Assembly (NCBI RefSeq): GCF_964204645.1
Contig: NC_134025.1
Location: 6,267,001 to 6,331,000, forward strand
DNA length: 64,000 nt
Direction: 5' to 3'
Source: Tubulanus polymorphus
Lineage: Eukaryota; Nemertea; Palaeonemertea; Tubulaniformes; Tubulanidae
Shown here: piece after piece, positions 16,193 through 47,000 of the stretch
Position numbering within the stretch: position 1 is the first letter of the stretch
How the letters are laid out: the number at the start of each line of letters is the position of its first letter
The notes under the pieces: generated by a model
Database searches by the model: none
What the model was told of the DNA's origin: nothing
Seen by the model: the letters and a program-made list of their open reading frames with translations, nothing else
Made by a program: the position numbers and the translations under genes

Positions 16193-19100
16193 ATGGGGAA
16201 CAAATTGTGTGCACCCCTTTGGAAGAAGCCCTACAGAGATGGTGAATCCCCTTGGTACCCAAAAAAGGATTCCCATCTGCTGAGGTAAGAATCTGTGTAT
16301 TCAGATTGTAGTTCTTTGTTCTTATCATCGTGAAAGTTATGCGTATCTGAACGAACCTACTCTCCATTGCTGTAGTGATACCTTTACTGAATATATGGCA
16401 TGATATCGAGCTATGAATGTCTCAGGTATTTTTTAATTAGAAAATTAGCTCATTTCAATTAGTTCATTATCTTTGAGTCAGATTTTAACCATTAACTGGA
16501 AACTTGCTCTAGAAGGCCATATTGAGCTCTGATAGTAGCCCTAGAACAATTTCATGCCATGAACTCATTTGTGTACATGATAAATCTTGATATGTTATTT
16601 GATAGTGCAATCGTTGGTAATTTTTCTATCATAAAAAATACTATTACATTACCACAGATTTCATAAATCTCATAAATATAAAAATATACATGGATGGAAT
16701 CTCATGTAGATTGATTCTTATTGGCATCGTAGCCATTACACGTAGATATTACAATTAGAAGACCTTTAATATCACTCCGACATCATAAGAAATGTCACCA
16801 AAAAAAAATGTATGGTGTCTGATGTGGGTTTAAGGTTGAGCCTTTAACACGTAATCTTGCTTATTTCAACTGCTCTTTGATGTGTCTGTCGCTGGTCTTT
16901 TATCTTTTCTTCCTTTTGAATACTATTCTTCCATTCATATCTGATATTGTCAAACGCATTCATCTTCTTCCTTCACTTAAGCCGCGATCAGTGGGCGAAA
17001 TTGGCACGGAGTCAAATTTGGCTCGCGCCTAATTAGAGAGTGGGTTCACATGCAAACCACTCACTTGTAACTAAACAATGCATTCAAAACAAAGAGAGTC
17101 GCTTCCAGAACCAGTTGCAATTCACATGCATTTATTTGTTGCATCTTAAAATTTGGCTCGGGCCTTGTCCGACATATTTGTTTGGGTCAAATTTGGCCGG
17201 GCCAAAAATGCTTGTGTGATCACGGCTTGATTAAGTACAAAACACCTATCAACTTATGACTATATGATGAGCAATAATTGAGAATTTAGATTTAGAAAAG
17301 GGTCTCATATATCGATATTTGACGATAGTCATTATAAACCCTCTTATTCTCTTGCATTGGAGAAAACTCCTAGAATGAATATTATCAATGTAAAAATGTA
17401 AATCCTGTACGTGAATTATACATGAGCTTTTGATTGACTGTTTCTTTCGAATTGAATTTCACTCATTTTGATATTGCATCTATCGACGATTATTTCTCGT
17501 TATAAATGGATTATTGATGAATATGTCACTGATTCGTCGCATACCTCAATATACCCTCAACTGTTATTAGCAATATCAAATCATCGCTCTTTATACACCT
17601 CTAGGCATCATTTCATTTCCAATACCAGTATATCATATCTGAATTCATAACGTAATCATTGAGTGATACTGTTTGTGATGGATATTTCGGGCGATCTGCC
17701 CCAGAGTTCTTTCGTTATGAATAGGAACTTACAACCATAATATACTTTTTTTGGTCATTATGCACTTACCGACCTGTGAACAAACTCATCAAAGATTCAA
17801 GGAACAATAAAAGCAGTGACGATGGATCCAGGGTGCTTCATTTGCTTCGTAAAAAGTGGTGCAAACAAAAATTGAAATCCTCTCTTTACCCAGGCTGTCA
17901 AAATTGAAGTGATATATGATCTTTTAGCCGGTGAATATGCGATTGCTGGATCCAACTGCCCCTGTTATTAAATGAACGAAGACAATTTATGAATATCGCA
18001 TTTTGTTGAAGTGTAATATTACATGTATCTCGTGACCATTGATGTTGTCTGTTGTTGTATATGTAGGAAAATAACCGAAGGCTACAAGAAACGGTAAGCA
18101 GCACAGAGTGGCTTTAACAAAATATCAGATATCTATCAGTTCTTAGTGGTACTTTCTTTCGTCTCGCTGTGATAAGTCTGATGAATTAATTCGGGCTTAT
18201 TGCCGCGAAGTTTCATTCACTTGTTATACAAATATATATGTACCTATTACACAAGTTTTTCACACAAAAAAAAAACATTGGGTTCCTAACTGATAAAATC
18301 GAAGGGTGTGATGGGTATATGTATATGTGGGACTTTGCTAACACGCTTGCTTGGTAAGTTCGCTTCTGAGGTACTACTACCTAATCATGTATTTTGTCAT
18401 TCCGTCGGGTGGATTTCGTACTAACCGAGCTAATTTGGTGATGGGCATTTTCCGGGTCATGCTAATATGTATTTGATGTCCTTTATATATGTATATATAA
18501 TACATGGTACACTTTGATCATAATAATGAAGTGGTGCATTTGATTTGTCCAAATTTTTCCTGTGTGCTCTGTGTACTAGAAATATCTATATGGTAACAAA
18601 ATTGCATCAAAATATGCATTCACAGTTTTTTGTTACATATGTATGTAATGGATTGATTGAAACAGTAAGCTATGAGAGAGTTGCATATAGGAACCAATCT
18701 TTACTTCTTTGCCAACATTTCTGTCTACATATAAATTCTCTTTACGTATTACAGTTGTTTGATCTGATCTTGACTGTGCTGATTTAATGTACGGCATATA
18801 TGATTAATGTCATTCAGTGTCCACTGCAAAAAGTAGGTTTCAACAGTGCTGCAAGAGCAGCATGACAGTGTCCACACTTTACGCGAGGAGGCATGTATCT
18901 GTTTCATGCGACGATACATGATTTATAATTCACTTTGTCTGAGTAAAAACGATTCTATTGGGAATGCGTAACCTTAGAATTTAACACATCTACATCAAGA
19001 AACAAGTTGGCAACAAGTTGCATTGGAGGAATTGCATGACCAAGTCTGCTTGGCACCATCTTGAGATAAAAATTGCTGGAGGGTTCACTTTTCTGACATG

Positions 19101-22100
19101 AATATTGGGATTGGCACTTTCTCGATGCATCCCGGGATGACATTAACCCGATGACTGTTATAGCTGAAACCTTCCTGTCATTGAATAGCTGGATGTAGAA
19201 CAGACAGCAGACATCCCTATCAGATATTGCTGAAGGGTCAGAATGGTTGGCACCTTCCTGAGATGACATTGTAAGTGCAACAGACAACCAGCTCTCTGAC
19301 AATTGAACAACTGCGGACAAGAATTTTTCATCTGTCCAGATACGTGGCACCGATGAACTAGGGGACCTTGGTGAATGTCCATGAATCATCATGGACATCA
19401 TCGGCGGCTTTCATATAACAAATGACAAACTGTACAATGTTTGTGAAAGACAGATTAGTAACTGCTTCTAGAACCATTATACACCCCCATTAAAATACAT
19501 ATGATTAAAACTTTGGTTGAAATGTTGTTATCTCAAAGATTCAATTGTTTTACAAACATTTCATTAGATTTCTGTTGATAGGTTCAGATAGTAGACGTGT
19601 ACAATGAATACAATCGGACATCATGAATTAACAGTAAAAATGTAACTGTGTGGCAGATATTTCGCTAATGGGATAAAGACCAGGTCTATATAAACCTCGC
19701 GAGGAATGAGTGGCAATAAATCTCAATGTCTGCTGCTAAATGACTGGATAGTTCCAGTGGATTCTAAAACGTTGCGTTTTAGTTTCCGTGGATTCTAGCA
19801 GATGACAGCACCGTCTAGAAGTTGCCGGATCATCGAGTTACAACCAGTCACATGCTTGTAGACCTTCAAAAATCATTTCCATCTTTAACAAGTCATGTAA
19901 ATGCCCTGAACTAACCACATAACAAATGTGTAATATGTATACACACTTAAACAATTTAACATCAAATTTTGGCTATGGGTTGTTATCAAAATTTCATGAA
20001 CACATGGATTTGGCTTATAACCTGCTGGTTAATATTCTGATAATAGAAAGTTTTCCACAAAAAGCTCAAAATCTGTACATCTACAGACTTGAGTGAAATA
20101 AGATAAGTTTATCGAGAAAAGCTTGCAAGTTTGTAATCAAAAATACAATTTTCAATGGTTTATTTGTTTGAATATATTTTAGGTTATGGGCTGAAGTATT
20201 CCAGGTGACGATGACTGAAGGTGAGCTCGGATGGGAGCGAGTGTCGGAGGATGTTGTACCCGTTAATATTACCTGTATACAGGACTACCCTGAAACTATG
20301 TTCCAAGTTACAGCGTACAATAGACACGTCATGAAAATATTTGATACAAGGCTTGTTCAACCTGGTAAGTCATTTCACCAATCGGGGTTCGTTTGTGACT
20401 GCGTTAGTAGATGAAAACTTTGTGTGGAATATCGAACAGCATAATGCAGTGCTGCTATCTAACGGTGTAGTGGCTAACCACTGATGACTAAGTGCAATTT
20501 AGTTGTTAACGCTGAATCGATCGATGAAAGTTTGTAAAACACCGTGTTTTCTATCGGCGGATGATTGATTTGATTGATCAAAAGCGATTAAATATCCATT
20601 TGATTGGAGGTGGTTACTCGCCAGATTTAACTATCAAATAGAAGGAAGTTTTTTTATTTCACCGATCTACCGGTAAGGCGCTTGCTTGTTAAAAGAAACT
20701 TTGGTTACTTCTATTCTTCCTTTCATTTGAATTATGAAATTTAAAAGTAATACGAAAGACTTGAAGTGTTAGAGTTTCGAGATAATAGGAGGCAATAGCA
20801 TGTGTTAGTGTAGTTTTGATAAATCTTCTGTTCCATTTCAATAGTAGAATAGCCACACTCAGACATGGGGAATAGGTAGTATGATCAAACCCTCACTATA
20901 CGCAAATCTAAAAGATTTCAGACGAAAATTATTTATCAAGAATTAAACTCAAAAGACCATGAATCGGACTTTGGAAAAGATCGTTTATACAAGGTTACTG
21001 TCAAATCCAGTTAAACCCTAATTTCAGGTCTTTTATATAGCCAATAAAAACCTGGCCATACATAAAATCGAAACATGTCTTTATTTGTATGAGTATGATA
21101 TAGGCTTTTGGACATTTTGACTTGGCTGGACATGTTGTATTTTCATTGGTCAATAATATCATTATAACCTTGTAGCAAATGCAATAGATATCCGTAAAGC
21201 CACGTTTTCAATGGTAAAATTGTGGAAAAAGTAATTGGTTTTCCTTATTGCTAACTGACAGGCTTTAAATGAGAAAAATTGATTAGGGCCTATATAATGT
21301 GATATTTTCTCCTCACAAGCTGTGCAATGAAATAGTTTGTTACTACTGGTTGAGCATCTAATTTAAAATGTGCATTATTCTACGTCAAGTTTGTTCACCT
21401 TTGTACTTGCCCTGTTAATTGCTGTTTCTAGTGCATTGTAAACTTGCTGGTTACATGAATTATTTACATCATTAATATTGAATGTTTGATTTGAAATACT
21501 GTACGCAACTAGTCAAATAACAGTAATTCACAGGTGTAAACCGGAGACTAGGTAAATTAAAAGGCTTTCTGTTTCTCATTCAAACAAACCTAAACATTTA
21601 AAAGTTTTCCATTCATTCCTATTTAAGTAGTTTTATATTTAATTGAATTTTAGAATATCGGTGATGATACCGTTGATATTGAGACAGATATAAAGGTGTC
21701 AAATCAAATTGAAATATTTCTCTGTCATCTGCTAAGTTCAGATAGGGAAACAGTAGGGGAGGATCCAAGGGGAGGGTGCAGGGGGTGCGCACCGCCTCCT
21801 TAAAATGTCAAGTTGCCCTGAAATTTTACGGGATAATAAGAATTAATTCTATAAAAAAGTTTAATTCCAAAAGCTTCTCTGTATTTCCAAAACATGACTT
21901 AACATTTTACCAATGAGCTTTCTTTCGGAAACAGTCTTACCAACCCTACCACTAGAGCCCTCTCTGCAGCTGCTACTAAAATAATCATTATAAAAATCAA
22001 TACGGCTTCGCGAAATTTTGCTGGGATCAGATTTGATTTTCTCGTCTAATTTCATACTATAAACGACCAATCGCTTTATAGATTTCCATCGGCGTAAAAC

Positions 22101-25100
22101 GAATATGTTACTAAGAGCGGCCTTACGAAATTGAGAAACTCAAATTTCCCATTTTGATGTTAAGAAAACTTGGTCGCTATTGTTAGGATCTCGGAATCAA
22201 ATAGCACTGCGTTACCATGGTTACTTACCTCAGAAAGGTATTGTAATGCAGTATAACTAATATCATCGGTTGGACGTCAGAAGTTATTCGGCAGCAGCGT
22301 AAACAATTTGCGATACACCGTCAGTCGCAGCCGTCAACGACAGTTCGCGGAATCATCGTCAAACGCCGGCGATTTTGATTATTAGATCTTGCGCAACGAT
22401 ATGGGATCGACGGTATCCGCTTTAAAGAAAGGACGGCGTCGATTTTCGACGTCGTTCATCGACGTATTTTCACCATCTCCCGATCAGGATGTATACGCGC
22501 AGGTGGATATCAGATATAGAGAACGACAGAGAACGCCCGAGTTGTCTCCGGAACAACCGCGACAGAATATTACTTACCCATTAGGCGAATCGGCTCAAGT
22601 ATCCCATGATTACGTGTCGGTGGATATACCTTCATCAGCTTCGCCGCCGGCTTCATCGGCTACGAGCCCGGGAACAGCGGACGGATTATTCGACTCGGAT
22701 AATAACTGGCCCGGTTCTCCACCGCCGGCGTTGACGTACAAACGGTCGAAGATCATTCGAATTCCGCTGAGACGTAAAACGGTGAAGAAGGTCTTGTCGC
22801 GTTCGTTGGATTCGAGCATCAAAGAGAAGAAGACGGCGGAATGTCGTACGCAGTTTCGTGAATCGAAGCATTATCCGTCGATTGATGACGAAAACGTCAC
22901 AGTAGGCAACGCCGGAGTCGCGGAGAATAAGAGTGTCGTAAGATCTGATGCTAGCGTAAAAGAAGTGAAGGCTGTAGAAGGGAAACTCACGGAGAAAATG
23001 GCATCGGACGAACATTTAAAGGCACTCGAATCGTGTTTAGTGAATATGTACATGAAAAACGTGGATTCGCGGCCAAGATCGGAAACGCGACCGAAACCGG
23101 CAGTGCCCGTACGGAGCAGCAGTATACATGGATCGACCGCCCGTTCCAATATCGGTCGATCGCGTAGTCCAAGACCTCCGCAACTCAGAGCGCAATCCGT
23201 TGATAGAAGTATGTACGGACTGCCATGCGATGTGAATCAGCAGCAATACCGATCCTGTAACCCGCCGAATATCAGGATTTCTCCATTAGATTTGAAACGA
23301 CCGCTGAGTCCGATTCCGCAGAGATTGGATTCGGCGGAAAATCAGTCACCGGAACCGAAGTCGACGGAAGCTTCGAAAAAAACTCAGTCGGTTACTCCGA
23401 GTATTTTCGTATTTCCATTCGAATCGCGATCATTGCAGCCGGGAACTACTCAGAATCCAGACATCGGACAATATCTAACTTCATCAAGTAATAGATCGGC
23501 ATCTATAATTAGCCCTGAACAGAATCCGCGTGCTATCAGTCCTCAACCAAATGCATTCGGGAGGCATCTTTCATTAGATATGTCACCTCAAGAACGATTT
23601 CAATCTCTAAGCCCGAAACTGACTACGTTCAGTAAGCAGTCGTTAGAAGTGATCTCGCCATTGGAACGCAGTCGGTCAGTCAGCCCGCGACCTAATAGGC
23701 AGTTTTCTTTCGAAGTGGAGTCGCCGGAGCGTACGCAGCCGATCAGCCCGCCGTTGAGCTCGTTCGGGAAGCGCTCCTCGTTGGAAGTCGAATCGCCTTT
23801 CGAGCGCTCTCGATCGGTCAGTCCTCAGCCGAGGTACAGATCGATCAGTCCTCAGCCTCCGAAATACTATCAACGGCGGCAGGCCCAGTCCGTCGATGAC
23901 AATATCTACAGTACGGAATACGCGACTTCCGATTTGGATGATCGGGCGATGTCTGAAGCAGACGCTCCAACCGTTCGATTCCGTCTTGACAGCAAGTTCA
24001 AAAAGGGTGAGATTCATATCAGTATCGCACTTAACAAATCAGTCATTGAAAATATCTGTTCTAAAAGGGCTGAAATGTTAGTCATAATCGTGGGCACGCA
24101 TTTTACTTATCTATATTCATCTCGTGCATATTTGCAATATTGTAAATCTATTGTTCGTGTGAATAAAGTATTGAAACTTGTAATATCGCTTTTGGTTATA
24201 TTATCGTCCGTGTGAAAATTTTTCCATTCCGATCGACAATGACAAATTGTGGAAAAAATAGAGAGAAAGGCGCCCTCGGTTAATTCCATCGATAAGATGG
24301 CGGTACCGAAACATGTTTTTCGCAGCTCTTTGCCGCTGTGTTCTTCGAATCGGTTCTTTATCGAACAACTTCTAAACATTTGGTTCTGATTTACTACACG
24401 AGAAGAGACATGCAATTTTTGCTAATGAAATATTTCTAAGGTATCGGATATCGGGGTAGAACGGAGTCAAGATATCATGGAGGTAAGAACAGCAATAAGA
24501 AACTATGCACACCAAGATGATAGCACATATACATATATGATGATGATGCTCCAGGTTATTAAGCAGATTCCATGAAGCAAAAAAAGTACATGACATTTAC
24601 AAATTTTTGGGGATGATGTTAGTGTATTGGAAGTAAAAACACCCCCCCCCCCTGATCGTGAATCACAAATCTTATTCATTTTTCAAATATTTAGGACCCA
24701 GTTAGAATCAGTTTATTTTCGATGAGTTAACCCTGAGCGAAAAATAAATTTGGAACTGGTATTACGCATATAGGACAAGCTGTATAACCACCGGCCAAGT
24801 GGGCTAGTTCTGTTGGTCTATAGATTAGTACACTTGCTTTCCTCGTACAAGACCCCGGGTTTGATCCCCAGTAAATGCCCTGTCACTTCTCTTAATCGTC
24901 ACACTGGGTCCTGGTACACAGTTTGATATTTAAAGAGTATGTGAAAATATCAACAGCAAATTTTGGAAACACCAACAAACCCGTGTCAATGAATATCACT
25001 GATTTATTCGTTTAAAGTTTAATTTTGGTGTCACGAAGCTGACGCCTGCATCTTATTACGGTTATGCGTCGTTTGTACATTAAGGGATGGGTTTGATGAC

Positions 25101-29155: not shown

Positions 29156-31243
29156 GTCTGATCAGTGGTTGTTGCTTATGTAGCTTCTACATCAGTCACT
29201 GGATGTTGACTGCAGCGAACAGCATCCTTCTCGTGCGTTATCCGCTCATGGTTGGATTATTTTTGGATTAGGATAAAGGTAGAAAAGTACTTTTCATTAA
29301 GTAAGTCAGCTTTATGTCAACCGCATTTTTTCACGGTTTGATTATGCTACAATGACAATAAGCACTTGTTTTCGTAATGGAGAGTAACATTCACAGGGTT
29401 TCAAGTGCACTCGTTATTAAAATGTTAATACTGAAGCAGTTGTTTTGTGGTTTCAAGCTTTTTAAAGTAATGTGGTAACAATGAGTTGACATTGGAAATA
29501 TGAAAAGATTTTCGGGGTCGTCCTGAACCTATTCATGATTATTTATCAAAATTTGTGTATGGAAAATTTTCAGATCATTTTTTGGTCCTCATTTAAGCTA
29601 TGAAGATTTGGGAAATTTAGGGATATTTAACAAGAGCCTGGTCTGTGAACCCTTGTTCTAATCATAGCTATGTAATCAACTTGGTAGTTATCCTGATTTG
29701 GACTTGTAAGACATCATCAGTGAAGCATGTTTGATTTATTAGCCAGTGTCCAGTCATCAAGTAATCGCGGCATTAGATTATCTACCATAGACTACAATTA
29801 ATATTGAACTGTCTCCTAAATTCCAGAGCTATATTCAGTAATTGGTGCCATTGTATATCTTCCCTTCAAAACATCGAAGAATGATGAAAACTGTTCTAAT
29901 TCTATAATAAAAGTTCTCAAATTTTCTATCAATATTGATAGATCTTCTATTTCAGCTTTTCAGTCATATCTATATTTTCTCATTCCGTACATGAAAGTCA
30001 CTCTGATAGGAATAGACAGCCTCATATCAATGAAGCATCACAGAAAGTGAGATTGAAATAATTTGAAACGAAAGCGTTCAATACGTATCTAGAAAGTGAA
30101 TCAATTTATTTACTAAAACACTGTACGATTCGTTTGAAGTTGGTCATTTCAACGAGAAGCTATACTTAGCTACCCGGTAATCGATATAAACCCGAACATC
30201 AAAAGAAGGGCGTGCCTGTCCTGTGTGAAGGTTTCTTGCGTTAAACAAACGTCGCATGAATTCTACGAATTATGTCTGAAGATATATATATATATCTACA
30301 TCTTCCGTCGTCTAGATCTAGACTAACGTTTCGCTTTTGTCTGAGTTCATCTGACTGAGAGATCTATCCGTGGTGGTGTATTGTTTGGTGTTTGAGTGTC
30401 CGAATCGTCACATACGCGGATGTTGTGCGTCTGTATCAGTTAAAACTTCACCTGATTGTTTTCTGTTGCGAATCGATGACTCTTTACCAATCCACACATG
30501 CATAGACATACGTGTGTTCTTATCCCCCTCCACGTTGCCAGTCATGCATACTAATTCGGCCGGTAAAAATCGGAATCAATTCACCGAATTGGTTTTTACA
30601 TCGCGACCGTCGCACGATGTGGTTTTAAAGCAAGTCGTTAGACACACAAATGCCGGCTATTACTGCTGTTATCTGCGTTGCTCGACGATCCAACAACCCC
30701 CCCCCCCGCTTAAAAAAATTTGACGCGCATTAGTGTAACTGATTTATGCCGTGAATTCGATATCGGTGTGAATGAAATTCGATTATAGGCGAGACTTGTT
30801 TCTCGATGGCGAGTGAGTTTTACCTTCGTCACTAACATCGATGCGTATGTAAACAATTACTCTTCTTATTCGGAACGTACATTCGTCTTTTCCCTCTAGT
30901 CTTTCATGAATTGCGATTTCCCTAGTGACTTGAATGCTATTTCTTAGAATTGTTCTCTGAAAAAAATGGTTTCGGAATAGAGTTTCCGTAATATTTTTGA
31001 AGTAACACGTGAAGAGCTTGCTGTAGGCATAGTGATCAATGCAAAAAAAAATTAACATTATGCAAAGCTGTGTCGCCCTTTGACTATTAAGTATCTTATT
31101 TTACTGTTGAATATATTTTAGGCACGAAAATCACGCAATCCTCCGACTGTTTTGTCCATTGGAAAGACGAAGAGAAAAACTGTGAGTGGGGTCTGAACTT
31201 TACTACACCGATTGATGCTCGTAGGTTCATTGATTGTTGCGAG
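16193..31243 (+). CDS. sif: GEF exons 1-3: acylated N-terminus and WH1 domain
   Basis: Exon 1 (16193-16284, acceptor at 16170, 22 nt of 5' UTR) codes [10 protein letters not shown]..., with Gly2 and Cys6 placed for N-myristoylation and palmitoylation. It ends in phase 2. Exon 2 (20183-20364) continues with LWAEVFQV and carries motifs [10 protein letters not shown] and RLVQPG. Exon 3 (31122-31243) carries [10 protein letters not shown] and WGLNF, ending IDCCE. The segment corresponds to the WH1/EVH1 domain of Still life, a fold that usually binds Pro-rich peptides. The introns are long (3.9 and 10.8 kb); the second holds the alternative first exon at 22401. Confidence 0.9.
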
Positions 31244-34200
31244 GTAAGTAATTCATTCCAACACCTTTAAAACTTGTTTGAACAGTCTTCTAGTTTTATA
31301 CGAGATACCCCAGTTCTCCGGGATGAAGGGATCCTGAATTTTAAGTTTTACCCCTACACCCTCTATAAAGTGGTAGCACATGTGGAACTGAGGATTCAAC
31401 TTGGTACTGTTGAATTAATAATATGCATACAAATAGCTGAATTATTCAAATATATCTAACTTGAAATATAAGCCATTAATGCAGCTTTTGTGATGACAGT
31501 ATTGACAATTATATGCCTCTTTTTAATGTGGTGAAAGTGATTATGGATATATGAATAACCAGTGTGTGCCATTATTGTAATACGGGCTCTGGTTTCTTGG
31601 CATCGTTGCTTATCAGGATTGAAAATACTAAAGCATTAACCATATGTTCAAGCTTGGCGACGACAATATGATGCAAAATTTCATAACTTGTATGTGTTTC
31701 TCATTTAACCAGAAATCGCGAGAAGTGATCAAATCTTTTTTTAAGGTATAAAGAAGCCGGGCTATAATACTATTACAGCCTTGCTTATCGCTGGATTTAG
31801 ATCTGTTGCCTGCAAGGGCCTTTCTATAATGCCCTGCTGGGCCTTGGCTTATGCTTCATATTATCGCTAGATGTAATATAATCATAAATACATATATTGA
31901 TACTTGAAATATTAAAGAATCCATTGAAATGCTATGATTTCAATCAAGAGTTAATCGCACTACTGGTATATACTTGCTTATTCTGTTTTTATTTCAAATT
32001 AACCACTAATGCCCTCTAATGAGTTGATGATTTATTGCAAATTTGACACACGTATGTAGTTGCACTTACTCCAACTGGTCAAATGGTCAGCACCTAGCTC
32101 ACCACATCCAGTTATTAAAATAGTGATAATAAGAATGAGGTGATAATAAGAATGACGTAAACTATTTACATCCTGTCTCTCTGGCATTAGTTCAAATTGA
32201 AAAACTATTGATAAAAGTTGCATAATTTGTCCAAGTGACCACGTAGGTCACTGCAGCAATAAGAAAGAATCTTAGGATAATGAGTGAAATGTCAGGTAGG
32301 TTTATCTAAGCTGAAAAATTAGCTAGTCTCCTTTGTTGATTCCTGGTAATAGCGTGGTCCTTTATTCCATACGCTATGGAGACAAATGTTAAATGTGTAA
32401 AGCTCGTTATATTATCTTTTCTCTAACAGACATCAGCTCAAACACATCGTGTGGCTCGTAAAGCTACATCTTCTACATCATTACGATTGAGCCCGCCAAA
32501 GGTTCGCTTTATATGTGTGTTATATGTATGTGCATGTTAGAAGAAAGATGTGAGATCTGGGACGAGATTTTTGAATAGGGGTTAAATCCTTAACCTATTA
32601 TCTAACTAAACATAAATATAATGTTTCTCGGGGTAGTACCTTCGTCCATAAAACCGGCCCAGGACCCAGTGGGCTGATTTTATAGGCAGGAAAGGTTATC
32701 ACCAGGGATAATTTCTATATCGATTTTACTGCAGTACTCGTTGGATTGCTGCTATGTTAACCCCTAGGATTTAACCCTGTTTAATATCCAGTGTGTGAAT
32801 ACCATCTTTGCTTTTTGGAATCACTCTTTCTCAAAGCCTGGATCTACCTCTTCGGTTTACCTATCTTCGTTTTTGAACGCCAAGCTTAAGCACGATATTT
32901 TTTTAGAGAAATAGTATATGTATAGATTTTTGTAGTCATCCAACTCCTACATTTTCTCATTTTTCTTTATTTGCCCTCTGATTTTACATACGATTTTATG
33001 TTTCGCTGTCATACATCTTTATTGCTTCCTCTGGTATAGGCTAGAAAAGCTCTTTGAACAAATAATATATGTGATACATTGAGAGATGTGATAACAACAA
33101 ATTTATTTGCATAGAACTTTTCATGAATACCTCCGGGTGTATGTAATCTTTGTTGAAATGAAATGGAAAAATGTTCACAAACTGCTTTCCAGCCAGAAGC
33201 ATCTATCTGAACACCTGTTCGATGTAACCCGAAGAAAGGCAATTTATAAAACTGGCAGAGCTTGAAGACCTTTTGCATAAGATGAAGAAAGATGGATGAT
33301 TACCTGGGGAATGATCCGCATATAATTTTCTAGTCTCATTGTCACCAATGGCCAATTGTATCCTGTTGTTGAGACGATCAGTTCAAATTACTGTCATTTC
33401 TTACTCCACTCACTGCGACTAGGTTAACATTTCACTTTCTTAACCCTTGACACACAGACATCGTTATTTCGATAATCCATGATACCACATACATTCACCA
33501 CAATGATAATTCATTAAAAATATTTCAAAGACAATTTTTAACATTCATTCATTCATGCATTCATTTGTTCTAGAAACTTAACTTATCTTAGAAGTACTGT
33601 TATGTTATCTGGCACTAATCTTCGATATCTAATGGATTCACAGGTTCTGAATATTTCATGAGTAAGGAAACATAATTCATCAATGACTTCAAGATCCATT
33701 ACATGAAAATGTCTGGTGTTTTACAATGATGTTTTATTGCTTCAAACATCTCCCATCTTCTATTGAATAGGCCTATTATTATCGGTGTTGTGTGAATTAG
33801 ATGTAGAAAGATGTTTCACCCACTGTCTTAAAAAATCCCATTAAGAAATTGAGTAACGATATTTATCTCGATTTTATGAAACATTACCAAGTTTGATAGA
33901 TGTAAGGCTATCGAAAATGAAGAGATCAGTTAAGCTTGGACCCTGGTCAACAGTTCTCAGTTAAGTTTGGCTCAAGATTAAAATGAGTTCACCTCCAATG
34001 TTTTAACCTCGAGTCAAATTATAACTGATAAATGTAGAACTGGCTCATGTTTTTAGTTTACTCGTCCTTATGTTTTATCGTAGCCTAGTAAAGATCGATT
34101 TATCTCTTAATTGTTCTCTTTTTTAAAATTATGTTTCACTTGATGGAATTCTAAAATCGTACATTGTATTTTTTCCTTCCAGAAATTACGCGCTAAGAAA

Positions 34201-37200
34201 GCGATATCGGCGCCGAATTCTCCGGCTGTCCTTCCTCGGCGAACTGTCTCCTCTCCTGATGATCTAGCCACGACGTCAACGTTTATACCGATAGATGGTT
34301 CGTGTACGACCCCTCGTCAAGTCAGAAAGTCAGTAGGCAGTTACGGTTATGCCTCTGCTAGCCCGCATCCGCCTCCACCATCTTCAGGAAATGTCGTCGA
34401 TAGCATCGCGACAATACCCCGTAACCGGCAGAGACAGATCGCCGATGCCCATAGTGGATTCGGAGATGTGAACAAAGGACCAAGTCCATCTGGTAATAAG
34501 CCTCCATTTGAAAATGTTAACTCTTCCGCATTGCCAAGACGATCTCCGCAAGATTTGTGTACATTACGCTCACAATATGGCCGCCAGAATAGTGACCCTG
34601 TACGTATGGTGCACAGTGTACATAATCCATGTACTCATACCTTACCTATAAAATCTATTCTAAAGGTAAAACACGATAGTTTACCGCGACAGCCAGCTTC
34701 GTTTGATAGTTCTAACATTAGTAATTATTCCAGTGATAGTGCAAAATCAAAAGGTCGAAAACTTCCTGAGCCAATAGCGATTCCCTCTCGGGATAACACT
34801 AGTACTACAGCTGGAACTGGACTCAATAAATATTCCAGTATTATCGTTGGCAATTTTGGCCAGACTAATAGTGAATCTTCAAAAGACCAAACGGATTTAT
34901 TGCCAGTGTCGCCACCTGCTGCATCTCATTCATCGGAATCGCCCGAGTGGCCAGCACCCCCGGAACCCCTGTCTCCTTGCAGTCCAGAGACTCCATTATC
35001 AGGGTGTAATGCTACTTTTGATAGTGATACACTGAAGCGTATGCTTCAGTCATTACCGATATCTCCAAACGGTAATGGTGACGACTGTGCATATCACGAG
35101 TTTGAGGAAAAATACGAATTACATTCGCCAGTAACGCAAAGTCAACCGGTGTCGCCAACTGCTCAAACACCCCCTAGTAAGTTTGAAGATAAAGGGTGCC
35201 GATTACATCGGACGCATAGCTTACACGAGAATCGGATTAGCCACAATAACGGTGATAGTACTTACAACAGTCCGTGTAGTTCGAATACAAACACAATGCA
35301 ATCTCAGCAAGGAATTAAATTGTTAAAGGCAAACGTCGAACAGGAGTTAAGATTGCGGAACGTATTAGCAAAGGATACGTGTAACAGTTACCCGGATAGC
35401 GGAATAAGTGGCATGACTAGTGGATCTGTTATGTCTGGAGATACCAGGAAATCTTCTACTCTTCCTCATGGTAAGTGATTATGGTAGTTCTGGTTACGCA
35501 TTCGAACAAGGGATTCAGACTTGATGACCTTATCATACAATGACAGTAAGAATCTTTACATCAGCCATCGAAAAATGTGGCTGTATAAGTTCCCTTTGAT
35601 ATAAGCCTTCCTGGACTTGCATAAAAGTCTTATCATTGTGTAGATCAGGGAGGTGCGAGTAGACTTTTTACTCCAGCTATCTATGATTTATTATGCAATC
35701 GTGGTAAGCTACCAGTAATTTAGTCAGATCCTCGATGTTGGATATTGCTATGAGGGATATTGCTATGAGACGACAGTAACCACGTGTATCTTACATTACA
35801 ACTAAAATGCCCAACAGCTCAACCAATCAGAAACATCGTCGGCACCTCATCTCCGGCAGGTTTAAAAATGAATACGTAACTACTCATCTCGTCACTACTA
35901 TACTAGACTGATAGATAGTGGCTCAGCCTGTCATGGAATATAGACTGATCAACTGATCAGTCTTATAACACTGCTTACCACACCAGCAATACCAAATCAG
36001 TGATAAATTACAAGCCCATTGTAAATAATGTCATCTTTCTTAATAAGATTCCATTCTATAATCACATAATGCCATCTGTAAAGCTTTTTTGATGATTCAA
36101 TAATCCTACATTGAGACAGATGATATCTTCATCAGACTAGATTTGTACTTGAACTTTTTCAGTTGAATGATGAAAGTAGATATTTATTCATGTTTGAAGA
36201 CTAAGAACAAATTCCAAGAATTACAATTCTAAGAATGACATTCAAAAATGTAGGGCACCTGCTAGAAAAAGAAATATGTTTTTCTCAATGAAAATCCTTT
36301 TGATTTACAGGATCATCATCATTAAGTACAGCTGGTAGCTCTAGCAGTGGCAGCAAACGACAAGGCCCAGACGCAAGTCCCGATATACGTCATGGATTTA
36401 CTTCATCTGAGGTACTATTAATCGTTGCCTGGCAACAGAAATATCATTAATTGTCAACGATGGCACATTGCTGCTCAATGACCTAGTAAAAATCGTATCG
36501 TTTTTATGATTACATTTTCGGGCCGATCAGTCGGAATCAAATTCTGGAGTGATGAATGTGAGATCGAATTTGTGGTAATCGATTAGAATGAATATGTGGT
36601 CCATATTCCTGAGAGAGAATAAAATGAATGTGAAAGAGTGAAAAGTGCGAAGTACAAAATGAAACGGTTTGGATTCCTGGAAAATCACATCCTAAAATTT
36701 TGATTAAAACTCATTTGATACCGGTTTTGATTAAAGGCGGCAAATGTTAAACAGAACATAAATTTTGGTTTAATTTATCGAGCAATCTCAATGTCCTTTA
36801 TGTTGTCCTTAGAAGCATATACTAAAATGAAATGTTTATTCGAAGTAGTGATCATGTCATGAATAGTTTCAGCAGCAAATGCACTATTTATGTTGCATCA
36901 GAATGCATGCCTACAAGTATTGTGGAGTATTATGAGACCTACATGAATCGGCTAATGATCAATAAATATGTAATCGAATTTAATTCCCCGATCATCCCCT
37001 GAGTGCACATTAATTATTCATATCTCGTTATCAGCGGTTATGACCAGCTCAAAGGAGGGAAGCGCAAAAAATATGTTATCGACCCTCCCTGGAAATGACT
37101 ATCAGACGAAGTGCTTAAGTAGTAAAGACGTCGTTACCAAGCGTTTGATTGTTGTATTTTGTAGATGTCAGAAGATAGCGATGATGAGGGTAGTGATAGT

Positions 37201-40200
37201 AGTATTCATACACAGGCGGAGGAAACTCAAAATATGATGGGTCGGCAGGGTGCTATACGAAAGGCTGGGTAAGAGCTCGCACATAGAATGTTTAACTTCT
37301 TCGCACTGGTTATTATTGAAAAAGCTTGTTTTGAATATTGATATCAGATTTAATCTTTAGCCTAATAAAGGCATGCTTAGCCTGACTAAACTGATCAAAC
37401 CAGTTGCTTTAACATCGAATTAGAGCGACTGCAAGTGAATATGCTGAAAATCACAATTGATGCGAATTGATCAAGAGATGTCACTATCTATCTGCTTTGC
37501 ATCATCAGTTAAACTAGGCATACGTTTACCGCATAGAAAATGAATGATCAACAATTTAGCTTTAGTTTCACTCGAAGGAAGTTTCTGATGTTTCTTGCAC
37601 TGGGTATAGCTATTTTTCAACATAAAAGATCCGTCCATTATCTACTACCGTACTTACTTATCATTCATGGTTCTAACGGTCATGATGCAGGTGTCATTCT
37701 CAATGGACCTCAATATTCCATGGATTATCCTTATTTGTCGATTAGCATCCAGCAACATGTGGGAGGACCATTAACGATGAGAGGGTTCTCTTTAATCTGA
37801 TAAGTAGACAATGATGCCGATGAGTCTGGACTGAAGTATCGCTGGGCTATGAATATTTTGTGCGGCGTGTATTGGAATGAATGATAGCAATATGCTACAG
37901 GGAAATCTGATGAGTTACTTTGAAATTCAGACAACTTTATGAGGAAATCATGATGGTTGATGATATGTCACACTTATTATGATATTAATCATTTAAAATG
38001 ATTACTCCGACCTCTGATATCCAAGGTTCACTAACTCTATTAAAACTGCACATAGAAGTAGAAAGGATAATACGTACTATAGTAGAAATACCCTTTACTT
38101 TCAAAGAGATTCCACATTCAAAATAAACCATTTTACAGTTGCTAACCGCCATTTTGTTAGGGTACTTTTGTCCCGTATTGTTGGGTCATTTTTTTCTATT
38201 TTTTAAAAACTATCCGTGATGCGTGTTGTATCATATTTCATCTGTCCATGGATGGATTTTGACAACTTCAGCAACATTCAAACCGCGTGAATTTTTAGTT
38301 TTCAGTTATGTAAAAATCATTTCTCAAATTTACAACAATGCGACATGAGAGCGATATAAAAATCGGTGGTCAGTTTTTGCCGTGCGCATAGAAATCAAGG
38401 GTACTGAACTTTGAAGTTCGTTATTTTCAGAAATAATTTTCTAAAAAATCCAAGCATTTCAAGAACTGTGCGCATAAATGCCCCCTTTCAGGTGAACTTT
38501 GAAATTTTAAGATATCTTGCCTAGTTTTTTTCCTATGGCACTTTAACTGCAGCGCGTGTATTGTCATTCCGAGATTCGGCGCTGTTTTCTTTGCGTGTAT
38601 TTCAGTATATGGGTGTTATTTTTTCATTTTTACTACACTTGTCTCTACGGAAAATGGTTTTAATTGTTGGTACGAGTATCAGGTTTTAATATTACGTCAT
38701 TTATGCAATATAATAGATCAAAGACATTAGAGATGTTGGAGTTTAAGGGATTTTTTTACCAGTTTTAGCAGCGAGACTGAACGGCATTTTGATCACGTAT
38801 TCGAAGTTGCGCGCGGGAAGAGAATATATGGGCCTATATTGAGATGGAAGAAGAAAAGAAATATAACACTCAAAATCGAGTATGATGACCATTTAAATCA
38901 GTAGTCTATCAATAAATTTACATAAAAATCTACTGAAATTAGATGGATTGAGAAGTGGTCAAAAAGCTGGACAAATGGGTTGGGGCAAATATTCAGCTAC
39001 TTTCTATGAATACTTTCTATTAAGTACACACAAGATTGATTAGATTGGGAAGAAAATATAGGAAAACGTTATCTTGCTTTGGTGGTGACATATCAAGTAT
39101 CAAGTCCTAATGTCAGACACAGGTGATAAAAAGTAAAAAGTGACATCTACCATCACAAAATCGCAAGAAGTGTGTGGATTGCATTTACAACAAAAGAGTG
39201 ATATTTTGGGTTTTCTTGGGTGCATGTACGTAAGCCTCTGCCTGCTGTAAAAGCGGCTACCAATACAGCCATTACGAACTAGCGCCGGAGAACGGAATAC
39301 AGTATTAATGACGTAATATTAAAACCTGATACTCGTACCAACAATTAAAACCATTTTCCGTAGAGACAAGTGTAGTAAAAATGAAAAAATAACACCCATA
39401 TACTGAAATACACGCAAAGAAAACAGCGCCGAATCTCGGAATGGCAATACACGCGCTGCAGTTAAAGTGCCATAGGAAAAAAACTAGGCAAGATATCTTA
39501 AAATTTCAAAGTTCACCTGAAAGGGGGCATTTATGCGCACAGTTCTTGAAATGCTTGGATTTTTTAGAAAATTATTTCTGAAAACAACGAACTTCAAAGT
39601 TCAGTACCCTTGATTTCTATGCGCGCGGCAAAAACTGACCACCGATTTTTATATCGCTCTCATGTCGCATTGTTGTAAATTTGAGAAATGATTTTTACAT
39701 AACTGAAAACTAAAAATTCACGCGGTTTGAATGTTGCTGAAGTTGTCAAAATCCATCCATGGACAGATGAAATATGATACAACACGCATCACGGATACTT
39801 TTAAAAAAATAGAAAAAAATGACCCAACAATACGGGACAAAAGTACCCTAACAAAATGGCGGCTAGCAACTGTAAAATGGTTTATTACAAAACAATACTT
39901 TAGTTTTAACAAGAGATGTAACTTATGAAATATTGATATGCTTGAGAGTTCATTTCTTAACTACAGGATCCAGTTGTGTGGAACTGGGTCCAGGCTTTTA
40001 AAGTATATCAACTCTACAACATCTGAGGTAATATTCATTTTTATTCATTATGTGTAGATGGTTGATAGTTAAGAATTGGCTGGTCCATAAAAAGCGAAAA
40101 CTAGAGTTAGCTCCTAAACGAACCTGGAAAAAATATTGGGTGTGTCTGAAGGGCACTGTTCTTCTGTTCTTTCTCTGCGATGATGAGGGTGAAGTGAACC

Positions 40201-43200
40201 AAGATGCAATACCACGGCATTTATTAGGTACTTTGCAATATTACACCATTTATGTTTTTGTTGTAGTCTGTATATGGTGTTTATAATGTACTTGTATGTT
40301 TTCTTCTTCTCAAGTCATCGAAGGTGGAATTGCTCAAGCTATACCCGAACACCCTAAAAGAGAGAACATATTTGCACTCAGCACTGCCTATGGCGATGCA
40401 TACTTGTTTCAGGTAGATTTTTTACATGATTTTCTTCCCATGGGCAAAAACATCTGCTCATTTCTAAACTATTTATTGAAAACCTATATACACTCTTCTC
40501 AATTTTATATTAGGCGCCATCACAAACCGAGTTGAATAACTGGATCGCATCAATTCATTCCGCATGTGCCTCGTCATATGCTCGACAGCACGGCAAAGAC
40601 AACACACTAAAATTACTCCGGTCTGAAATTCAAAAACTTGACACCAGTATCGATATGGTAAGGGATCTAATATCATGTTATGACTACATGGTATATTGTA
40701 GGGAATAGAGATGTAAATCTATCGATTATTCAGACCTGACATGTCTCACTTGTATAAACATCAATGTTTTCTTATTGATCTCTTCTTATCAATCAATCAA
40801 AATATTAACTGATTCTGAAGTTCTCTCTTATCGTGGTATGTACGTTGCCCAAAGCTAGCTTTATGAGTTCGTAGTGTGTTTACCGATACTTAAGGTTCTA
40901 TAAATTATAGGTTATGGTACGTCCATTTGTCACTTGTTTTTGCTCAGTCAGTGAGTTTTTGTGCCTTTATTTCTAGGATTGTAAAATGCGTAAAATGGCC
41001 GAGTTGCAGTTGACGGTTGTAACAGATCCAAAGTCTCGTCAGGCAATTATCAAGCAAATTTTACAATGGGAGGAAAATCTTGAGAAACTCTACATTGAAC
41101 AGTATCGACTTCGATGTTATATGTCATCATTACAAGGCTCTGAGTTACCCAATCCTAAGGTATCGGTCATTAGCATATATTTTAAAATCCAATAGATAGC
41201 TGAACACTTTCAGTACAGGGTATGGTTTTACAAAAACAACAGCTTTTGATTTTATTCCATAATTTCATGCGCATACTCTTTTCAGACATTATTATCAAAT
41301 GTTTCGAAGAATAGTAAAGTTGTATTAGGAAGACTAGGTGTATTCACTGTGACATCATTCCATGGATTAGTGTGTGCACGATCTCCGAACTCTGCCGTTC
41401 GACTATATCCTGGACCTCGGAGAAAAAACAGTAAAAATGGCAACAGTCTCCCCAAAACGGAGAGCAACACTAAATCAGGCAAAAAAGAGGATGGATCTTT
41501 ACAAAGACAAAGGTGAAATACATCAAAATACTCATCCCATTTTGACAAGATTGTTGAAAACGTTTATGTGCATTTAATGTGATGTGATTAACATAATATA
41601 TTAAGATACTGTAGGTTGTTACTTCATAGGTCGATAGATCAAGGTACGGTCGTAGATTTGACCAAGATAGAAACTACACAGATAGAACACAATGTCACTG
41701 GAGAACGTATCTTCATGCCAAATAAACAGGTCAGTCTACCTACAAGATTGCCCGTTTCTATACATGAGTTCCTGTCCTCCTCATGGCTTTGGTTTTTGTT
41801 TTGTAGCATACAACTGTGCCTGTCAATGATCGTATGATTGTTTCTGAGTTGGTTGAAATTTCTTGTAACAAGAAACGTTTGAATCCACGAGATCATTTCT
41901 TACGCATGAAGACTGTCGGGAAAGAAACGTGGTATATTCCTGATAGAAGTGCAAACATTAAAAGTCAGGTACAGTACAACTGTATGGATTAGGACCTAAA
42001 AGCAACAAAAGTTATAAATATGAAATTCAAGTTGTTTTTGAACATTTTCAGGAGTATGATTCTTTAGAAATCTATCAAAAGGTAGTCTTCCAAACTGAAT
42101 TAGTTCGGCCTCATTATGGTGCTGATTTCGGATTTCAAATTGAAGCTGAACTGGCTGAGGATTCAGATCGTGAAGATGAGTTACGTTTGTTTGTTACTGG
42201 TGTTAATAAAGGCAGTTTAGCGGAGAATAGAGGTTTGTATAGTCTGAACATGGTGATGACAGTTTTATACATGCTTTTTTTCGTATACAAAAAGAAACAT
42301 GAACGATTACTTGTTTTTCAGGCCTTCAAGGTGGTGATGAAATTCTAGTCATAAATGGTAAAGTGGTGGCCGATTTAGACATGGTATACATCGAGAGTTT
42401 GCTACAAGAGGGTGACAATATTCGAATAACAGTTCGATCATGTCGTTCAGAGCGTCCGTACGGTACGATAATGATGGAGCATGCAGATGTATACATAGAT
42501 AAGCTAGTGTGCCCCCCTCCACCGACTCAAACTCGCATTTCGGATAAAGCAATAGGGGATTTGATTGTACCTGCACCTCAATGGGGTAAATATACAACAT
42601 CACTGACCCATAGTCATTACTTAATCCCCCAACTAACCACATATATCTCCTCAACCTTGGCACACCTTATACTACTAGGCTAATGATGGCAATCTTTGCA
42701 CTGATTCATTTATTTGGTTTATCTAAATCTAATATCTACTCTCTCTCTTCTGATCAATTCAAACAATCTCATCACTTTGGAAATGCTAAAATTCTAGTTC
42801 TAACTCCACATGTAGAGAGTTGATAGCATCCCTTTGTAATCTTCAAGGAAAAACTGAGCAGTCTTCTATTCTATATTGAAAAGTCTGCATGAATCAAAAA
42901 AGAAGGTGATTTCGGGTCACATGCATATATCTTTACATCTAAAATGCTCTGCATGCTTCCAATCCGTATGTTGTTTATGTCTATGTAAGAATTCTTATAG
43001 TGATGAAGCATATTTGTATGAATATTTCAAAGTATATCTTAATTCAAAACGATGGCTGGCACTGGTTGTTGTGTTTCACCTTAGATATTGTATAAATGGT
43101 TCACACTTTGATACGTATATTCGAACCCATATTGTGTCTATCTATGTTAGGTCCTGATGAAACAGATTCTCCGCAGACACCGTCATCTCAATCAGACAGT

Positions 43201-43963
43201 CAAACATCACATGAACAAATTGGTACTTTAACGCAGGTCAGCATTTCAATTTGTGTTATATCTTTGTATCATAGCGTAACATTACATTTTGCGATTTCAC
43301 ATGTTTTTGCATATAGCCTGCTGAACAATTGACAGAGATCTGCCGAGCTACTAACCTTGCAAGCAGAGGACGCAGTCTTTCAGATGCTCAGAAATTACGC
43401 AAGGTTATCGTAGAATTGATCGAAACAGAAAGAGGTTATGTGAAGGTAAGTTTTTCAGTGTTAAGTTACCCTACAAATTAATTTTTCTTAGATTGAGATG
43501 AAATGTGATTAAATCTACTTGTAGGATTTGACTTGCCTAATAGAACGCTATCTTGAACCATTGAAAGCAGAAACTTTTCTTTCGCACGAAGAAATTGAAC
43601 AACTGTTTGGAAATATTCAAGAGATTGTTCAATTTCAACGATTGTTCCTTCAAAGTTTAGAAGAAGCAGTTGAACAGGAGCCCGAATTCCTAACAATAAC
43701 AGATACTCGGCAATTTCATGTAAGTTTATGTCATTATCGAGGTTAAGATAGGTCCATTTAGGAGAGTAGAGTTGCAAATTTTTATGGAAAATCTCTCAGG
43801 TTGAAATAACAATGGGACTTGTTGAGACATATGATCGAAAAATCTTAGCTTTGCTACTTCATGAATCTATAGGTATTAATAGTAATTGTACTCACTCTAC
43901 GCGGCACCTTCACCACTCACAATATTGTATTAGATAGATGTACATGTATGCGTATGCCTAATA

Positions 43964-44051
<88 letters not shown>

Positions 44052-47000
44052 ATATAATATACTATCATATGATTTGATATGTACATGTATGCATATTCTT
44101 TTGAAAATTTCATCTTTGCTTCGAATGTTTGCTATCCCACGTTTATCAAAGTATGTCTGCCAATATATCTTAATATCACAAGTTAAGTTTTTTCTATGAA
44201 TACAACTCTAATTTCTTTGTAAATGCAATTTATATATTTTAGGATGATTCAGTTAGGGTAAGGTTTTATCATGTTTTGTCTTCCTCTTTCCAACCATAGG
44301 ATTGGATTAAATATGATGGCTTCATGTACATACATGTACATTTATCTTCACAAGCACATTAGAACACCGTGCCCAAGGTTTTGTGGATTGACTTTTGACT
44401 TAAGACTTTGATGAAAATTGGGAATGAATTATCTACAATTCAAATATCCAATAAAGATCTTGAGGTTTTTCTAATGAAGTCAGTAGCCACAGCTTCTTGT
44501 AAACTTTGGTCCCGGTTGTGGAATTTGTTTATCTAGACTTCATGTTTAATTCAACTTATAATTGGCGATGAGATATCTATCAGTCTATTCGAGTTCATGT
44601 AAATGAAGTTACTTATTTATATGTTGTTATGTTTTCATATGAGCTGTGAAAATTTTTCTTGAAATTGTATTCTCTTTGAACATCTGGATTTTTTCAATGG
44701 GTTACCTGTAGGCTTAGAACTCAGGAATTTTTTCTAAGTGGATGAATTAGAAAAATGCTCAAAAAGATGCTTCTAATGAAATTTTACTATGCATGGATGT
44801 TATGGATCTAGTCAAGTGTTCAGTCATGTTTTCCATCTAAATTCCCTCTAATATTTTTCTGTGTGCCGTTAACCTTTGATTCAATTTTGTACATCATCAT
44901 TCAATCAAGGCTACTTTGGAACCTATAAGGATATAATTGATTATACCTTTAACTTTCTCAGCAATAGCTGATCAAAGTCTTCTATCTTTATCTTCTCAAT
45001 TTGCCTTGAAAATGCATCTATTCAACCTTGTTGTCATTTGGTAATGCAGTTTTAGTAATGTTCAGGTGGCAGTGTAAGCATTATCTGAGTAGCAAAAGTG
45101 GCCTACAGATTTTGAGACTGGAATAAGTGAATCTTGCATATCATTATTCTGAAATGTCGTCATAATAGAGTCAAGGCTCCTTCACAGCTACATCTTTCTA
45201 CATAACCATTTTTCATGTTATTTCTCAAAATTCATGAGGTCCAAAATATTGGTATTATAATGAGCATTTACTGCTAAATGATTAGGTGGGTCTAGCAAAG
45301 AGAAAAAATCTCAGATTATGAGATATATGTTTTTGGGTGATATGGGTTTTTATGAGGCGGGTCAGGGAAATTGTAGCATGGATAAACTGACTGCATGTAT
45401 CCATTTTTCTTGCATGTCCAGGTATTTGAGGTGATATATCTTACATTTTTCGGCATCTTGTTCGTCGTTGTCTTTGTTGTGTTCATACATCCCTGTTTTA
45501 GATCATGCCAAACAGTTAACTATCCCCCTTAGAGCATACTTTGAATATGTAAACATATAGCAGTTACTGTGACATTCACATATACATCACACATTTATTA
45601 AGACACATTTTCTGATAATTTGAAGCTCTCATATCATAATGCATGTACGGTATAGCTAATTGAGTTACATGTTAGACGTACATGACGTTTTTTCCAATCT
45701 AATGCCTATAAGTGTTAGTTTATATCAATGTTCTTCTGCTGATAAGCTTTCTTTTCTTCATAGCTATATGTAGTCGATACATCGCTTCTCAACCATCATC
45801 TTTTCATGTGTTGCTTTTTGATAGAAGTACACATTAATAATACAAACAATGCCTATTCCCTATCTTCTTGTGTAGAAAATCCACTGTTTGGCATGGCTTA
45901 TTATATGTTTTGTAACAAACTCACAAAGATTGGATGCAGATTGATTCAGTTTAGCTCTTCTAGTATTGAATCTGTAAAGCGGTGTAGTGCTCTCAAAGCT
46001 GCATAAAATCATGATTTTGATGCTTTAGAAAATGTATGTATGTATGTACATATGTTTACTCTTGTTTTCAGAGAATCCTGTTTTCGATTGGTGGATCATT
46101 CCTATATTATGCTAACCATTTTAAGTTGTACAGTTCATTTTGTGCTAGTCATTCCAAAGCTCAGAAGGTGCTCAATCCAGGTCAGTTTTTCTCAAAATGT
46201 ATCATTTACGCCTGGAAAGTGACAAACTAATGTTAACACGTAGTATTTTCATTTATACAGAAACAAATGCATTGTTGAGGGACTTTTTGCGGGCGAGAAA
46301 TCCAAAACAACAGCATTCAGCGACTTTAGAATCCTACCTCATCAAACCAATTCAAAGAATTCTTAAATATCCACTTCTGCTTCAGCAGTTAAAACATTTG
46401 ACTAGTCCTGAATCAGATGAGTTTTATCACTTATCGGGTAAGTAATGTAATTGCAGTTTGTTTTATCAAATTATTGTCCTATTCCTGAAGCATAATTTGT
46501 AGTACCAGTTTTCTGTATTTTGCAGAGGCTTTACGAGGTATGGAAACTGTAGCCGAACATATCAATGAAATGCAGAAGATTTATGATGAATATGGTGCTG
46601 TGTTTCATGAACTGATGAAACTTTACAAAGAAGCACATCCCAACAGAGTTGTAAGTTTGTTTTCGGAACTCTTCAGTAGAAATTTTGTTCATGTCCTTTT
46701 TTTGTTTTATTTCGTTTTTACTATCACTACATCCCCACATTGCCTACATCTGTCATCCATTAATGTATATCTCACCTCCTTCCCACACCTTCAATAAACC
46801 TGTATGTATAGTACACATGGTATCCCAGGACTGAAGTAAGAAGAAGTAGTTGAAGGTACATTTTATGTGTTGTATATATGAAGTTGTTGGCTCATTTTCC
46901 AGCAGAGCATTGCCGCATACAATGTCACTGATGAAGATATTGGATATGTTGATGTATGTAGCCTATACCCCTTCTGTATTCTTTAAAACCATTGTAACAC

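Follow-up and report, generated by a model that had tools for sequence, protein, structure and literature searches.

The window analysed here is a stretch of 64,000 nucleotides of the nemertean Tubulanus polymorphus (contig NC_134025.1, positions 6,267,001 to 6,331,000), and all positions below refer to it. Its central part is occupied by a gene with exons spread over 16193-48821 on the forward strand (Table 1). A 979-aa part of the gene model matches the Pfam families PF18385 (Tiam CC-Ex, E 1.2e-47), PF23014 (Tiam second PH, 7.9e-44), PF00621 (RhoGEF, 9.3e-44), PF00169 (first PH, 1.2e-19), PF17820 (PDZ, 3.5e-8), and PF02196 (RBD, 5.6e-6). The closest PDB match of the DH domain is TIAM1 (1foe, E 6.7e-82). 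By domain content this is a TIAM/Still life Rac GEF gene, with predicted exchange activity. GEFs of this family link receptors and scaffolds to Rac in neurons.

Only one such gene was found in the genome. With the WH1 protein of this gene as query, its two exons alone were recovered (E <= 0.1), and matches to the Tiam CC-Ex family were confined to two exons, which likewise belong to it. The WH1 family gave seven matches genome-wide and none at this locus, which means that such a search misses divided WH1 domains. The protein encoded by canonical exons 1-3 does match WH1 (PF00568, 24.2 bits, cut-off 22.4), and its best PDB matches are Homer 2 EVH1 structures (E 0.0012). In the final gene model, four exons (40514, 46072, 46903, and 47022) and the full length of 46261-46437 were restored by hand from a gene-finder path with too low an exon penalty, which also gave spurious small exons. 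A 9-base exon (45422) was omitted, and 46903 and 47022 are the least certain.

Table 1. Features of the TIAM/Still life locus of T. polymorphus (window coordinates).
Feature	Position	Strand	Frame or content	Basis
Canonical exon 1 (coding part)	16193..16284	+	Starts MGNKLC; ends in phase 2	
Canonical exon 2, first part of WH1	20183..20364	+	Ends in phase 1	
CpG-rich leader, putative 5' UTR/promoter of the alternative start	22250..22400	+		CpG o/e
Proposed alternative first coding exon	22401..24006	+	535 codons and 1 base; phase 1	Open frame, codon score, length beyond simulation, single genome match
N-terminal myristoylation-type motif, then basic cluster	22401..22442	+		Sequence; pattern count in the window
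Possible in-frame cassette form	22585..24006	+	Phase 1 to phase 1	Acceptor score 0.81
Diverged protein repeat array	23277..23855	+	About aa 293-485	Self-match versus shuffles
GTGAGA donor	24007..24012	+	Phase 1	Sequence and splice score
Exon 3, second part of WH1, proposed partner of the alternative exon	31122..31243	+	Phase 1 to 0	
Exon 4, Ser/Pro-rich linker	34183..35470	+	429 aa	Gene model, codon score
Remaining exons: PH, Tiam CC-Ex, RBD, PDZ, RhoGEF, second PH, C-terminal region	36311..48821	+		Gene model, Pfam

Two further elements were seen in the window. The segment 60219-62843 (+) carries an uninterrupted 874-aa frame, whose product has a 7-transmembrane domain of the secretin/adhesion type (PF00002, E 1.2e-13), and looks like an intronless receptor gene; it equals the exon described below in its high GC (0.52) and CpG o/e (1.63). 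That exon sits between two short interspersed repeats, at about 21755-21930 and 24752-24908. Among the matches listed, of which 40 of 258 and 40 of 128 candidates, respectively, were scored, each has some 40-50 copies, mostly 73-88% identical, and neither repeat enters the open frame.

A long coding frame between the WH1 exons

The first-pass annotation had described a 1.6-kb open frame starting MGSTVS in the intron between exons 2 and 3, and the present analysis confirms it. The exon opens ATGGGATCGACGGTATCC and belongs to a frame that extends from stop to stop over 22386-24215 (609 aa), with an upstream in-frame TAG at 22383-22385. Its first ATG, at 22401, has G at both -3 and +4, and the next Met comes at residue 200. 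Frames of this length were never reached in simulations: the maximum was 268 aa over six frames of 60 x 20 kb of sequence with the local dinucleotide make-up, and 180 aa in 15 simulated 64-kb sequences with the make-up of the window.

Codon usage tells the same story, with a signal that sets in near the ATG and stops at the donor. With a codon model trained on 1604 codons from 19 other stretches of the same gene, this exon being excluded, 22401-24005 scores +176 bits over its 535 codons. Each of the 18 consecutive 30-codon blocks starting in the exon is positive, the last one overrunning the donor by 14 bases. Windows of 50 codons starting from 22401 to 23901 score 0.16-0.49 bits/codon, and between 24006 and exon 3 no such window (50-base steps, + strand) exceeds 0.11 bits/codon. 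The 68 codons that follow the donor are not coding-like (-3.4 bits), and GC drops from 0.56 in 23750-23999 to 0.32 in 24000-24249. The 535 residues have no family match in Pfam or NCBIfam at E <= 1, and a single PDB chain match (E 3.2) was taken as chance. Searched against the 267.8 Mb genome, the exon found only itself at E <= 1.

Donor, reading phase and loss of WH1

The coding frame, boundaries, donor, and phase of this exon are all supported by computation. At its 3' end the sequence reads AAAAGG, followed after base 24006 by GTGAGATT, with one codon base left over. Using approximate splice weights that were not trained on T. polymorphus, the donor scores 5.24 bits, the best within the open frame (the next, at 2.95, is 2.3 bits lower) and in the top 0.66% of the 3794 + strand GTs of the window. 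Exon 2 ends (20364) and exon 3 starts (31122) in phase 1, as the gene model confirms for the earlier report of a phase-1 GTGAGA donor lying between WH1 exons that meet in the same phase. Because exon 3 ends in phase 0, which is also the phase at the start of exon 4, the donor at 24006 fits exon 3 and cannot reach exon 4 in frame. Exons starting in phase 1 also occur further downstream, at 36311, 40315, 42322, 43151, 46261, and 46526, and splicing beyond exon 4 is therefore possible.

When 24006 is joined to 31122, the frame continues to the stop at 48819-48821 and yields 2260 aa; the canonical form has 1816 aa. Exchanging exons 1-2 for the new exon preserves the frame of the whole GEF, as had been proposed; the length given at the time was 2251 aa. 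The difference of 9 residues is smaller than the 33 residues contributed by the two small uncertain exons (46903 and 47022). It had also been stated, rightly, that the first 91 residues and about half of WH1 would be lost. What is left of the domain in exon 3 and the start of exon 4 covers only profile positions 72-106 of 111 and scores 17.3 bits, below the Pfam cut-off; by PF00568 the alternative product has no intact WH1.

Two myristoylation-type N-termini

The canonical start (MGNKLC) and the alternative one (MGSTVS) are both of myristoylation type, matching the PROSITE pattern PS00008. Over its two strands the window contains 1858 ATGs with eight open codons, of which 16 fit this pattern, both starts included. 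A stricter form requiring S/T at residue 6 is fitted by 8 of the 1858, among them MGSTVS. A myristoylation site is stated for the N-terminus of mammalian Tiam1 (PMC3343084), and C. elegans TIAM-1 is given a myristoylation signal or a potential site (PMC3343084, PMC6370339). Judged from its sequence, the alternative start appears to repeat this Met-Gly feature of the TIAM family, which supports 22401 as a real start. It also makes it less likely that one form is membrane-bound and the other free, lipidation being predicted for both. The earlier proposal of different targeting therefore needs refining: as both starts are of myristoylation type, the predicted contrast is one of WH1 binding with a phosphorylatable, basic Ser/Pro arm rather than of membrane with cytosol.

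A Ser/Pro-rich arm with a diverged repeat array

A long, phospho-type Ser/Pro region had been claimed for the new N-terminus. Ser, Pro, and Arg make up 16.3%, 10.5%, and 9.3% of the 535 residues, and there are 21 SP sites (shuffle mean, 9.1) and 24 RxxS/T sites (mean 10.5). Against 2000 shuffles, no enrichment was found for 14-3-3-like R[SRK]x[ST]xP (1 versus 0.34), PxxP (7 versus 5.8), or basic triplets (2 versus 1.75), and the 535 residues contain zero FPPPP-type and zero DSGxxS sites. From its composition, the arm of about 500 residues is probably disordered. Exon 4 itself encodes a Ser/Pro-rich linker (no Pfam match in its 429 aa), so that in both forms the first PH domain would be preceded by a long stretch that is probably disordered.

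Part of the arm is built from diverged repeats. The best 27-residue self-match scores 72, with shuffle maxima of 51 (300 shuffles) and 43 (15 shuffles). The other forward frames reach 35 and 22, and the antisense frames 43, 63, and 21; we attribute the 63 to third positions in that frame coinciding with those of the sense frame. At the DNA level, the best ungapped 81-base self-match of the exon is 46/81, with none above 57% identity. The repeat copies agree at the protein level, most strongly in their own frame, which we count in favor of a coding exon; the antisense scores of 63 and 43 weigh the other way. Five chosen, partly overlapping repeat pairs gave pS 0.80 and pN 0.38, and the best pair had a pN/pS of 0.56, reached in 0.8% of 2000 random simulations; these values are biased, the pairs having been picked by protein similarity, and are only supportive.

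Leader and base composition

CpG o/e is 2.19 in 22250-22499, compared with 0.95 for the window. Other high bins begin at 20500 (1.59), 22000 (1.58), 24000 (1.53), and 24250 (1.40), and with high CpG extending beyond the leader and the exon, the support that it lends to a start here is soft. The leader contains TCAGTC at 22321, an initiator-like motif, which is weak evidence for a start. A bacterial-type promoter scan of the leader returned 0 promoter-like and 2 terminator-like sites; the model is bacterial and uninformative for an animal. With a GC3 of 0.51, the exon lies above two other long exons of the gene (0.35 and 0.33). Such a value would be expected of a CpG-island-like first exon, or of a gene that was once separate, and the former is favored because coding ends sharply at the donor.

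A probable alternative first exon and competing explanations

The best-supported and most economical reading is that 22401-24006 serves as an alternative first coding exon that is joined to exon 3 and takes the place of WH1 exons 1-2, and we regard it as likely. The transcript would begin within the CpG-rich leader, shortly upstream of 22401, and 24006 would be spliced to exon 3 at 31122, leaving the rest of the GEF in frame. The predicted product would lack the first 91 canonical residues, and with them half of WH1, which would probably be unable to bind. In exchange it would gain an N-terminal glycine in a myristoylation-type context and basic residues, followed by a Ser/Pro/Arg-rich chain with repeated SP and RxxS. 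On this reading both products are predicted to be Rac GEFs anchored at the membrane, guided by WH1 in one case and by a phosphorylation-sensitive arm in the other. Among the points against it are the retained half of WH1, which is structurally odd, a phase match that by itself has a chance of 1 in 3, and the lack of a family match and the higher GC3 noted above. As regards the original proposal of a second N-terminus, computation supports that the stretch is coding, where it begins and ends, its phase, and the domain loss, and the join to exon 3 is the most economical choice where a cassette from 22585 or other phase-1 exons are possible.

In the cassette arrangement, exon 2 would be spliced to an acceptor at 22585 (or 22432) and 24006 to exon 3, giving a switchable disruption of WH1 between its exons, with about 474 residues inserted mid-domain if 22585 is used. 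That acceptor is in phase 1 and scores 0.81, above 9 of the 23 acceptors compared (of the 25 in the gene model, 46903 and 47022 were omitted), but 291 of 3308 + strand AGs in the window score as high or higher. A free gene-finder path from exon 1 did take the open frame via 22432, with a total of 498.6; the path from MGSTVS totals 503.1, and this comparison is indecisive because the two begin at different exons. The 22432 acceptor itself scores -2.0, below all 23. Acceptors upstream of 22386 are unusable in frame, since the TAG closes it there. The strongest acceptor-like site of the open frame spans 22470-22488 (4.26 at 22488) and is in phase 0, which rules out an in-frame junction with exon 2. 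Ahead of 22585 lie 61 codons that reach +20 bits in this frame, both remaining forward frames being negative; a first exon accounts for them, for the Met-Gly start, and for the CpG-rich leader, whereas a cassette does not. We consider the cassette unlikely.

The first exon might instead skip exons 3-4 and join 36311, or another of the phase-1 exons listed above, leaving no WH1 remnant. The orphan half-domain would then be avoided, but among the in-frame acceptors of the model that of exon 3 lies closest, and nothing in the sequence calls for skipping, which makes this variant quite improbable. A separate intronless or short gene nested in the intron and ending at 24213-24215 would agree with the frame being open as far as 24215, with GC, CpG, and GC3 that differ from those of the two other long exons, and with GC and CpG resembling the single-exon receptor frame at 60-63 kb. 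Against it, the coding signal and GC fall at 24006, the site of a good donor, the tail has the negative score given above, and an AATAAA at 24162 precedes the stop; we hold such a gene to be very unlikely. The least probable explanation, to which we give hardly any credence, is a transposon-derived or chance open frame without function. The interspersed repeats on both sides could point to a mobile origin, but the open frame lies outside them, matches itself alone in the genome, and shows codon bias as well as repeats whose conservation peaks in its own frame.

A bolder form of the alternative first exon can be put forward tentatively, and we think it rather unlikely. Two independent myristoylated N-termini would let one gene make membrane-anchored Rac GEFs of two different builds, an intronic promoter swapping the scaffold-binding WH1 for a repeat-grown Ser/Pro phospho-arm. 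An invertebrate gene would in this way have a product that lacks a functional WH1 and shares the layout of vertebrate TIAM.

Comparison with known TIAM systems

Vertebrate TIAM proteins combine a lipid anchor and a long disordered arm with the order PH-CC-Ex-RBD-PDZ-DH-PH, and in TIAM1 a long Ser-rich region precedes the first PH domain. Vertebrate TIAMs are not known to have a WH1. Drosophila Still life (sif) type 1 has the order WH1-PH-RBD-PDZ-DH-PH and begins Met-Gly-Asn-Lys-Leu, as canonical exon 1 does. The sif gene is not known to have an isoform with a region resembling the exon described here. A literature search returned no title on one; subscription papers were mostly outside its scope, and absence from print is not claimed.

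Isoforms that differ at the N-terminus are already known in this family, both as WH1-less forms (C. elegans) and as forms with an internal start (mouse Tiam2), in the available text of the reports cited below. As in T. polymorphus under our reading, one C. elegans gene, tiam-1, gives an isoform A with and an isoform B without the EVH1 (WH1) domain (PMC9612824, PMC3343084, available text). Isoform B is described there by its domain loss, and the available text of the two papers mentions no long new Ser/Pro-rich N-terminal exon. According to the accessible part of PMC9612824, B::GFP is diffuse and A::GFP punctate, TIAM-1B fails to rescue distal high-order dendrites, and WH1/EVH1 is reported to set protein location and the dendrites supported. 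Mouse Tiam2s has its own start, which lies in intron 15, and the frame of the long form includes its 579 residues (PMC6394906, available text). The parallel, for mouse and human Tiam2, is an intronic transcript start that leads to an N-terminally different isoform with its own effect; in contrast to our exon, the same portion of PMC6394906 describes no new N-terminal region for Tiam2s. Vertebrate TIAM1 resembles the predicted form in its N-terminal myristoylation site as given in the available text of PMC3343084, a likeness by description for which homology is not claimed. The accessible part of that paper also mentions the EVH1 domain "of Tiam1 and Sif", and because it ascribes EVH1 to Tiam1 too, the two-GEF proposal was given lower odds.

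Implications

What would be new at this locus is the replacement of WH1 by a long N-terminus of myristoylation type that bears repeats. If true, a natural choice between WH1 and a phospho-arm, both behind a lipid anchor, would be a ready-made experiment on the role of WH1. Should one gene indeed make two such membrane-anchored GEFs, this would suggest a possible route from a WH1-bearing ancestor to the vertebrate type of TIAM. More generally, the choice between WH1 and arm could bear on the divergence of TIAM N-termini between animals.
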